This document shows, one piece after another, positions 41,556 to 43,565 of a stretch of DNA of 64,000 nt. The position numbers and the translations under genes are program-made. The notes below the pieces were generated by a model. The model ran no database searches and had not been told where the DNA came from. It was given only the letters and a program-made list of their open reading frames with translations. The DNA is taken from positions 154,601-218,600 of the forward strand of contig JAFZVB010000004.1 in NCBI GenBank assembly GCA_017618055.1, written 5' to 3'. Numbering within the stretch: the stretch's first letter is position 1; the number at the start of each line of letters is the position of its first letter. This DNA comes from Clostridia bacterium. Lineage in GTDB: Bacteria; Bacillota; Clostridia; Christensenellales; CAG-917.

Positions 41556-42317
41556 ATGAGATACGGCATCCAGTTATATTCCTTAAGACAATATTTAAAA
41601 TCTGACGAAGATTATCGTGAGGTATTTAAACGTTGCAACGAAATGGGTGCCGAAACAGTTCAGTTGTCCGTAACAGCAGGACATCCATATAATGCTGAAC
41701 TTATAAAAGAGTTAGTTAAGGAGAGTGGATTGAGCGTTTGTTCAACTCATTCTCCTTTTTCTCGTATAGTAAATGATTTAGATAACCTTGCACTAGAACA
41801 TTTATCTTTTGATTGCCACGAGATAGGAATTGGCATGATGCCAGGTGAGTATAGAAAGAACCATTATGAAAAACTAGATGATTTCATAGCAGAACTCAAC
41901 AGGGCAGCAGAAAGATTAAAGCAATACAATATTTCAGTTGCATATCATAATCATTGGTTTGAATGGGATGATACAAAAGAAGGCAAGGTAATAGAAAGAT
42001 TAATAAATAATACATCTAAAGATGTAAACTTTATTCCAGACACATTCTGGATTAAATTTGCTGGTGAAGAACCAATAGAGTTTTTAAAGAAAGTTAGTGG
42101 TAGAGTACAAACACTACATTTAAAAGATTACAAAAAGACATTAGGACTTCCTATATTTAGAGCTGTTGGCAAAGGAATATTAGATTTTAAAGAAATAATA
42201 AAGACAGCAGAAGATATAGGAGTACAAAATAGTGTTGTTGAATTAGATTTATCTCCAAAACCATATATGAGCTTGGAGTTTAGTTTTGATTATATTAATA
42301 AGAACTTAAAGTCGTGA
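41556..42317 (+). CDS. xylose-isomerase-like TIM-barrel protein (sugar isomerase/epimerase) 2
   Basis: A 253-aa protein of the same broad TIM-barrel superfamily as 37895-38809 but distant from it. Metal-site segments are VAYHNHWFEWDD (near residue 130), FIPDTFWIKFAG, TLHLKDYK and SVVELDLSPKP. It follows the transporter gene by 1 base and closes the hexuronate operon. It may be a second isomerase, epimerase or lyase for the same glycoside. Its stop codon lies inside the first copy of a palindrome family (42314-42338). Confidence 0.82.
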   Translation: MRYGIQLYSLRQYLKSDEDYREVFKRCNEMGAETVQLSVTAGHPYNAELIKELVKESGLSVCSTHSPFSRIVNDLDNLALEHLSFDCHEIGIGMMPGEYRKNHYEKLDDFIAELNRAAERLKQYNISVAYHNHWFEWDDTKEGKVIERLINNTSKDVNFIPDTFWIKFAGEEPIEFLKKVSGRVQTLHLKDYKKTLGLPIFRAVGKGILDFKEIIKTAEDIGVQNSVVELDLSPKPYMSLEFSFDYINKNLKS

Positions 42318-42338
42318 AGTCACAATTTGTGACATCAC
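42314..42338. repeat. palindrome copy 1, downstream of the ORF6N gene
   Basis: A 25-bp palindrome with core GTCACAA-T-TTGTGAC and outer arms GTGA/TCAC separated by one A-A mismatch. The core is identical to the copy inside the ORF6N gene (43111-43135). It overlaps the TGA of the preceding gene. There is no T-run, so it is not a normal terminator. Confidence 0.7.
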
Positions 42339-42376
42339 CAATTTGCGGTAAAAATCCTTGACCACAAAATAAAAGT

Positions 42377-43351
42377 TTACAATTCCAAATCGTCATTTTT
42401 TAACAACTCTTCTATTAAAGGACGATAGAACGAAGAAGTTTCTATTCTGACTATTGATGATATGCTATTACCAGCGTCTTTGCTTGATGCTCCACATTGG
42501 AACAATTCTTCGTTTTTAGTTTTGCAATCTATATAGATATATCTATCATGATAAGGTCTACAAGTTTTCTTTATTGTAATTGACAAGCCAGTATCATTAA
42601 TAAAATCTTTTATCCAAGTTGAAGTTAATGAATTTTTAGCTTTATTATCTGTAAAGATTGTAATTTTAACCTTGGGGTTGCAAACTTTTAATAATAGAAG
42701 TGTTTTGATATCAATGTAATTGTCGATAATGTATATTGTATGTTTAGCCTTTCTATATATCTCTTGATGTGCAACATCAGCTTCTAGTCTTTGTCCATCC
42801 AAGAATAGAAAATGGTTATATGTTGTTGGATCGATAAAGTTTTCCATAACCATATTCAATTGATTTTCAAGATTATCTATACGATTTGAATTGTTTTTTA
42901 TTAAATCAACCAATTTAATAGTTTCATAGCTTGGCAGAAGATTGTTTGTACTCATCACATAATCTTTGATTTGTTTAAAAGTTCTAATCAAAGAAATGCT
43001 TTGTTTTGTGGCCAATTCGCCCTTTAAGACAGTCATCAACATATAGATTCCTTGTTCTGTAAATGCATAAGGAAGATATCCTCTGCCACCAGCGCCTTGA
43101 GCCCATAGAGCAGTGGTCACAATTTGTGACCTCTGCAAAGAAACAACTTCCTCTTTTGTTAACTGAAAGCGAAAATCAACTGGAAATTTGTCTATGTTTC
43201 TTTGAACTTGTTGGTTAAAACTTTTAGTTGTATATCCATATATTCCGGCTAACTCAAAATCCAACATCACTTTTTGTCCACGAATTTCGTATATCATAGA
43301 TTCGATGGTATCTTTGTTTAATTCTTTTAGAATAATATCTTTTTCTTCCAT
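42377..43351 (-). CDS. ORF6N DNA-binding domain protein with C-terminal HKD-like domain
   Basis: A 324-aa protein. Residues about 15-110 match the ORF6N (KilA-N-like) DNA-binding domain found in phages and bacteria: IRGQKVMLDFELAGIYGY, FQLTKEEV, RSQIVT, LPYAFTEQGIYML. A helical linker follows. The C-terminal part (about 178-315) resembles a phospholipase-D-like domain: YIIDNYIDIKTLLLL, then H268-x-R-x4-D275 (an HKD variant), then CGASSKDAG. From memory this two-domain layout recurs widely in bacteria without a known function. It is flanked by three hairpins upstream, one inside its own coding sequence and one downstream. A strong AAGGAGAAAA precedes the ATG. It may bind or process these palindromes. 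Confidence 0.82.
   Translation of the reverse strand: MEEKDIILKELNKDTIESMIYEIRGQKVMLDFELAGIYGYTTKSFNQQVQRNIDKFPVDFRFQLTKEEVVSLQRSQIVTTALWAQGAGGRGYLPYAFTEQGIYMLMTVLKGELATKQSISLIRTFKQIKDYVMSTNNLLPSYETIKLVDLIKNNSNRIDNLENQLNMVMENFIDPTTYNHFLFLDGQRLEADVAHQEIYRKAKHTIYIIDNYIDIKTLLLLKVCNPKVKITIFTDNKAKNSLTSTWIKDFINDTGLSITIKKTCRPYHDRYIYIDCKTKNEELFQCGASSKDAGNSISSIVRIETSSFYRPLIEELLKNDDLEL
43111..43135. repeat. palindrome copy 2, inside the ORF6N gene
   Basis: A 25-bp near-perfect palindrome (11 of 12 arm positions) with core GGTCACAA-T-TTGTGACC. On the coding strand it spells codons 73-80, including the family-conserved RSQIVT. Its outer CAGAGGTC arm matches copy 5 at 43541-43565. Confidence 0.75.
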
Positions 43352-43444
43352 AATTTTTCTCCTTAAGTGTATTTGATTTTATATATAGTTTAACACTGTC
43401 AATGTTCCAAAAATGGTACATTGCAAAAGAAGATAATAAATAAT

Positions 43445-43565
43445 CGGGGTCAATTTTTTCGACCTCGCTAAAGCAATTATGATGTTATTAAAATAGACAT
43501 TTTCGTGAGGTGAATTTTTTGCACCTCATAATATTATAGTCAGAGGTCAAAAATTTCGACCTCTG
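43445..43565. repeat. array of three related hairpins upstream of the ORF6N gene
   Basis: Three hairpins with 9-nt AT-rich loops: 43445-43467 (CGGGGTC/GACCTCG), 43506-43528 (TGAGGTG/CACCTCA) and 43541-43565 (CAGAGGTC/GACCTCTG). The middle one has exchanged a C-G pair for G-C against the others, so pairing is conserved. The consensus is GAGGTC-N9-GACCTC. Together with 42314 and 43111 there are five copies in 1.25 kb and none found elsewhere in the window by eye. Confidence 0.75.

Follow-up and report, generated by a model that had tools for sequence, protein, structure and literature searches.

Operators that lie inside coding sequence are known from galE (OI) and lacZ (O2). The parS site is conserved and has further genomic copies, and the Rickettsia palindromic elements place palindromic DNA inside reading frames. 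In B. subtilis, parS-359 lies inside parB (PMC4442127), and PARCELs are 25-residue tandem repeats that occur in many ORFs (PMC2996958). The locus described here was analyzed within a 64-kb stretch of DNA, referred to as the window. It shares with autogenous repressors an HTH protein that would read a palindrome at its own gene, with ParB-parS the predicted site of a DNA-binding protein inside the gene for that protein, with PARCELs and the Rickettsia elements palindromic DNA within reading frames, and with the REP/REPIN-RAYT systems palindromes beside the gene for a DNA-acting protein.

The ORF6N Gene and Its Five Palindromes

The gene at 42377..43351 (minus strand) encodes a protein of 324 aa with an ORF6N domain and a C-terminal PLD/HKD-like domain. 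The protein was matched to the Pfam family PF10543 (ORF6N) with an E value of 7.6e-32 and a score of 109.9 bits against a cut-off of 27.8. ORF6N was the only Pfam family above cut-off, and no ParB family match was obtained. A match over residues 2-318 (E 6.1e-100) identifies the protein as a full-length member of the PADLOC family PDC-S05, which is abundant in rumen MAGs (PMC13356809). The literature found assigns PDC-S05 neither a function nor a DNA site. The gene is sporadic, being present in 2 of 43 genomes of the family and 6 of 396 genomes of the order, and when the locus was scanned for sigma-70 promoters, no candidate rose above background.

The ORF6N domain is winged-helix-like in the AF2 model, with a helix at residues 42-51. 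The codons of this recognition helix (K43, S44, Q47, and R51) occupy 43199..43228 (minus strand). Residues 76-81 and 84-88 of the loop have pLDDT values under 50 and form a disordered segment that holds the palindrome codons. The ORF6N domain may share its fold with the KilA-N/APSES-like winged helix; the fold matches to the domain were weak (Mbp1, Z 4.2; SKI-like, Z 7.1; MerR/RacA, about 5), and no KilA-N chain was prominent. No close sequence relative was found in the PDB. The PLD/HKD-like domain, at residues about 181-320 (42392..42811, minus strand), was identified using the invariant columns of A1 and A2 and a fold search. It adopts a PLD fold, with VIA-align Z values of 9-13 to NucT, Nuc, SauUSI, and BfiI. 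The catalytic HxK(x)4D motif appears as HxR(x)4D (H268-D-R270-x4-D275), in which the HKD lysine is replaced by arginine, and H268, R270, and D275 are invariant across 55 sequences.

Five palindromes of the form GAGGTC-N9-GACCTC had been predicted at 42314, 43111, 43445, 43506, and 43541. The window was searched for this pattern with up to 2 mismatches, and all five elements were found there, within 1.25 kb. The number expected in the 64-kb window is 0.48, and the highest count among 100 shuffles of the window sequence was 3, with 0 of 100 reaching 5. The predicted form is exact for the element at 43541; the other four carry 1-2 mismatches. The internal palindrome CAGAGGTCACAAATTGTGACCACTG at 43111..43135 (minus strand), the proposed intragenic operator, lies in the loop codons and matches the pattern at 43113-43133 with 1 mismatch. 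It encodes QRSQIVTT of the ORF6N domain, which contains the predicted RSQIVT. A second site at 42314..42338 (match at 42316-42336, 2 mismatches) is located directly downstream of the ORF6N gene and overlaps the stop codon of the neighboring gene for a xylose isomerase-like TIM barrel (41556-42317, plus strand). Both sites were expected to have a common core, and both contain TCACAANTTGTGA, at 43117-43129 and 42320-42332, respectively. The three upstream palindromes are at 43444..43468 (imperfect; match at 43446-43466, 1 mismatch), 43505..43529 (43507-43527, 2 mismatches), and 43541..43565 (GAGGTCAAAAATTTCGACCTC; 43543-43563, 0 mismatches). The C-G to G-C swap noted earlier in the second of these hairpins is compensated, and pairing is retained.

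Palindrome and Recognition Helix across ORF6N Genes

ORF6N relatives in species genomes and on viral contigs, plasmids, and phages were read, and the region from the HTH to the PY.FTE strand was scanned for palindromes of at least 8 of 10 pairs. Of 128 distinct ORF6N genes, drawn from Bacillota, Bacteroidota, Spirochaetota, Fibrobacterota, and other sources that include viral contigs, 124 carry such a palindrome in the loop that follows the HTH. Among the remaining four is the second gene of L028, whose palindrome falls outside the scanned range. The loop of L032 is without a palindrome, and exact own-code sites are found upstream of this gene, one of which adjoins the likely start.

The palindrome sits about 220 nt past the start codon. 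Counted from the center, positions 2-12 are paired in 88-98% of cases, position 13 in 82%, and positions 14-15 in about 50%, and this decay beyond position 13 gives a unit of 25-27 bp. At least 9 pairs are formed in 110 of 128 loops, compared with 17 of 603 control windows in the same genes. Loop segments were also compared with a synonymous-codon null, in which codons were redrawn from the usage of each gene and which gave a mean of 6.5 pairs. At least 9 of 10 pairs were observed in 106 of 122 segments, and 92 of 122 had p <= 1/300 against this null. The palindrome is therefore not forced by the peptide, since its symmetry exceeds that of the null. There are 71 distinct left arms among 110, and pairing is nevertheless kept. 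The palindrome is independent of the HKD domain because 21 ORF6N genes without HKD also carry it.

In several genes more than one in-frame palindrome was found. L035 (Fibrobacter) has three of different sequence, L031, L056, and L101 have two each, and L052 is also among the ORF6N frames with two or three different in-frame palindromes. The multicopy genes L035, L031, L056, and L101 thus indicate that sites duplicate locally, apparently within or ahead of the loop. On the Treponema saccharophilum plasmid pTS1 (L238), the ORF6N gene is flanked by a DNA methyltransferase/winged-helix pair and a restriction subunit S gene, a setting that looks like a type I restriction operon. The 4.1-kb plasmid of Segatella copri (L253) has two annotated genes, one of which is an ORF6N gene with a frame +1 palindrome and a possible role in plasmid control.

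Mutual information was calculated for the bases of the palindrome against every protein column other than those of the loop. The values peak on the recognition helix, where pairs 4-5 co-vary with residues 47, 44, and 48, pair 3 with residue 51, and pairs 7-8 with residue 43. For pairs 4-5, residue 47 is highest at 0.82 and the best column other than 44, 47, and 48 is at 0.14. Residue 51 is highest for pair 3 (0.85), and residue 43 is highest for pairs 7-8 (0.52, with the next column at 0.18). The order of the residues along the helix is the order of the pairs along the DNA, and the spacing of i, i+4, and i+8 places residues 43, 47, and 51 on one helix face. Pair 3 is C:G with R51 (84 of 86) and A:T with N51 (31 of 34). 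Pairs 4-5 are AC with Q47 (45 of 49), GC with E47 (32 of 33) and with R44E47 (32 of 32), and CT with K47 (8 of 9); with R47 they are CG in 13 of 31 and the half-variant (C/A)G in 13 of 31. Pair 7 is G in 85 of 85 genes with K43. Genes with the HKD domain (103) and without it (21) both follow the code.

As a control for kinship, 60 disjoint sister pairs were compared. Where residue 47 is changed, the bases are changed in 34 of 34 pairs, and where it is unchanged, they are changed in 6 of 26 (P 5.5e-11). The corresponding P values for residues 51 and 43 are 7e-7 and 2e-8, respectively, and no column outside the helix fell below P 0.001. Relatedness does not account for the code because of this contrast. 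The code was also applied without change to a held-out set of 21 plasmid and phage genes that had not been used before. The palindrome is present in 21 of 21; pair 3 was predicted correctly in 18 of 19 and pairs 4-5 in 18 of 21, with one half correct in each of the three misses. Phage FNU1 encodes distant ORF6N-KilAC proteins, and with the helix aligned by eye a palindrome is seen at the corresponding loop of these as well. On the same alignment, the FNU1 protein with K43, R44, E47, and R51 has a TCGC/GCGA site that fits pairs 3-5 and 7, and a second FNU1 protein fits pairs 4-5 and 7, with T at pair 3 rather than the A predicted from N51. Insulation between paralogues of the same genome, by avoidance of a shared specificity, was considered and is without support, since 3 of 19 pairs have the same 47/51 code and 17% is expected by chance.

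For the window protein (K43, S44, Q47, and R51) the code predicts GGTCACAANTTGTGACC, which is the internal palindrome. The live sites in the window would be this palindrome (43111-43135) and the downstream site (42314-42338). The upstream trio (43446-43563) has A at pair 3, as for N51 proteins with Q/E or R at residue 47. The half-sites of the first upstream palindrome, TCAA/TCGA, appear to match Q47-N51 and E47-N51 proteins and not the present R51 protein; those of the second, TGAA/TGCA, would be the form found with R47-N51 proteins; and those of the third, TCAA/TCGA, would be of the N51 type. The internal sites of sister genes have TCGA in L017 (E47 N51) and TCAA in L019 (Q47 N51). The window's genome yielded no second ORF6N gene, and the upstream trio is therefore most simply read as a group of old leftover sites, probably relics of an earlier specificity from before N51 became R51.

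Distribution of the Sites

The core TCACAANTTGTGA occurs exactly twice in the genome of the window, both times at the ORF6N gene. When the 1.58-Mb genome was searched for the GAGGTC-N9-GACCTC pattern with up to 2 mismatches allowed, the remaining matches almost all lacked full dyad symmetry, with one clear exception at C24:25152 (AAGGTCTAAAAATTAGACCTT, 2 mismatches). A search of 22 ORF6N genomes (about 62 Mb) for one common site type detected 28 TTGAGGT-N11-ACCTCAA sites, compared with 1 for the reversed control. The original prediction had proposed a check for clustering of the palindromes at ORF6N-HKD genes, and the result is positive, with 27 of the 28 sites in or near ORF6N loci. Sites beyond the known loci revealed further ORF6N genes (e.g., L188-L193), one site is separated from an ORF6N gene by about 1.3 kb (L076), and one is an orphan (L187). 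A second orphan, L257, was obtained in a search with GGTCACAANTTGTGACC and is a long intergenic palindrome, possibly a terminator. Both orphans are in other genomes; the site was found at its own gene and not elsewhere. Another common site type was looked for in 398 genomes, nearly all of which are without an ORF6N gene, and no copy of it was found.

Copies of the palindrome flank many ORF6N genes. Extra own-code sites are present at 20 of 122 loci, compared with 12.0 for shuffled codes (p 0.0075), a modest excess, and are often just 5' of the start codon (L060, L046, L043, L090, L104, and L202).

In viral contigs (L129-L165) and in L257, the GAGGTC palindrome appears as a terminator-like hairpin with A/T tracts, and many of the viral contigs are without ORF6N. 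The palindrome was rejected as a unique marker of ORF6N in viral contigs: those with GAGGTCRCAANTTGYGACCTC have ORF6N on the examined stretch in only 7 of 41 cases, and many others are terminator-like (AAAAGAGGTC..GACCTCTTTT). Because of these terminator-like copies, the sequence of the palindrome alone is not diagnostic there.

Proposed Autorepression and Its Alternatives

Self-control through binding of the protein to the palindromes had been suggested. The binding step is strongly supported, as residues of the helix co-vary with bases of the palindrome and specify them, and the ORF6N protein very likely binds a site within its own coding sequence. The self-control step is one that we infer; given binding, autorepression via an intragenic operator is probable. 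This would be the simplest use of the site because genes keep it whether or not they encode the PLD domain, because it is positioned about 220 nt into the coding sequence and is seldom found elsewhere, and because further copies near the promoter sometimes accompany it. Comparison of sequences establishes the palindrome, selection at the level of the DNA, the residue-base code, and the near-restriction of the sites to their own locus.

In the proposed mechanism, the winged-helix-like ORF6N domain would bind the 25-bp palindrome, presumably as a dimer, at a site made of the codons for the disordered loop between the HTH and the next strand of the same domain. Counted from the dyad, pairs 7-8 would be read by residue 43, pairs 4-5 by residues 44/47, and pair 3 by residue 51, and a change in the helix would be matched by a change in the site. 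The bound protein would block elongating RNA polymerase and thereby repress the gene, with extra promoter-proximal sites taking part at some loci. Such control would be independent of the promoter, inherited with the gene on mobile DNA, and retained whichever promoter the gene came under after transfer. In this scheme the protein is a candidate for phage defense, the PLD domain would serve as its effector, and autorepression would hold it at a low level. The explanation as a whole, in which ORF6N binds a co-evolving palindrome in its own gene for autorepression that travels with the gene, is favored here with good but incomplete confidence.

The alternatives to autorepression are a partition-like role and nuclease targeting. 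For the latter, the internal site would be the target of the PLD domain, which ORF6N would position on the ORF6N genes of rival phages or plasmids, or on its own gene, in an exclusion or homing-like process. The PLD fold resembles Nuc, NucT, BfiI, and NgoAVII, the PADLOC family is a candidate defense family, and the sites sit in a gene that is common to mobile elements. However, the protein's own gene has an intact site, so the protein would cut itself, the non-HKD ORF6N genes retain the same site and code, and A2 has an invariant arginine in place of the HKD lysine. Nuclease targeting is thus unlikely.

Template-switch correction is an established mutational process and could maintain the symmetry of a neutral, functionless quasi-palindrome in a tolerant loop, the loop being disordered in the AF2 model. 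Pairs 9-12 are 94-98% complementary yet variable, and in 124 genes they co-vary only with protein columns beside or encoded by them. This symmetry of the outer pairs, which have no protein partner, favors such a process and indicates that more than helix reading (shape, cruciform, or template-switch correction) maintains the palindrome. A neutral origin leaves unexplained the helix-base code, the held-out prediction, and the extra sites near start codons; it is very unlikely to be the whole explanation, and the process may act in addition to autorepression.

An RPE/REP-like mobile palindrome that inserts in or near ORF6N genes, perhaps moved by the protein, would agree with the flanking copies and with the different in-frame copies in L035, L031, L056, and L101. 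The sites are not dispersed in their own genome, where the core is absent elsewhere, and those of the 22 genomes are with one exception in or near ORF6N loci. The REP/transposase-like logic first put forward for this locus is not supported by these observations, and a mobile palindrome is highly improbable.

In frame-0 genes, the palindrome encodes the loop peptide, and both vary together, so that the helix might co-vary with the peptide inside the protein and not with the DNA. Seven genes have the palindrome in frame +1, namely L100b (ELVTNCDRL), L121, L128, and L169 (VEVANCDLN) in the first set and L242, L252, and L253 in the held-out set. Their peptides are very different (ELVTNCDRL, EVVANCDHL, and EVIKKFDNL), yet the base code is obeyed in 7 of 7 at both positions. 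DNA and not peptide is therefore what matters, and with a symmetry that is also greater than the peptide requires, this explanation is scarcely credible. An mRNA hairpin that controls translation or decay is just as implausible: the self-complementary sequence could fold as RNA with a loop of 3-5 nt, but of 81 mismatches 9 are G-T (G-U), fewer than in any other class, which gives no sign of tolerated RNA wobble, the code is typical of a DNA-reading HTH, and some sites are upstream or downstream of the gene.

ORF6N is widespread in phages, plasmids, and candidate defense genes; no DNA site for it was known in the literature found, and no open-access paper linking ORF6N to palindromes was found. 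The code yields the site of most ORF6N members from four residues, and their function is directly testable. With the target inside the gene, a protein-DNA recognition code can be read straight from genomes, and selection on DNA in this coding region is strong enough to survive changes of reading frame. The mobile ORF6N family likely carries lock and key in one frame, with the target placed in the coding sequence of its own reading domain and the paired changes about 70-110 bp apart, and would thus provide natural orthogonal repressor-operator pairs that are readable from sequence. Gene and operator would be inseparable by transfer because the target is within the codons of the reading domain.

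Membership in the REP/RAYT systems was rejected, since the palindromes are not dispersed through the genome and a Y1 (HUH) transposase was not found in the protein, which has ORF6N as its Pfam match, a PLD fold, and no RAYT homology. PARCELs and the Rickettsia palindromic elements differ from ORF6N genes, which have one operator-length site tied to one domain and helix. In contrast to ParB-parS, the specificity of ORF6N shifts repeatedly and its sites are confined to the locus. Autogenous repressors with operators differ in that the ORF6N operator would be part of the very codons that specify the DNA-binding domain, holds one conserved position in different phyla, is read in either of two frames, and co-evolves with the recognition helix.
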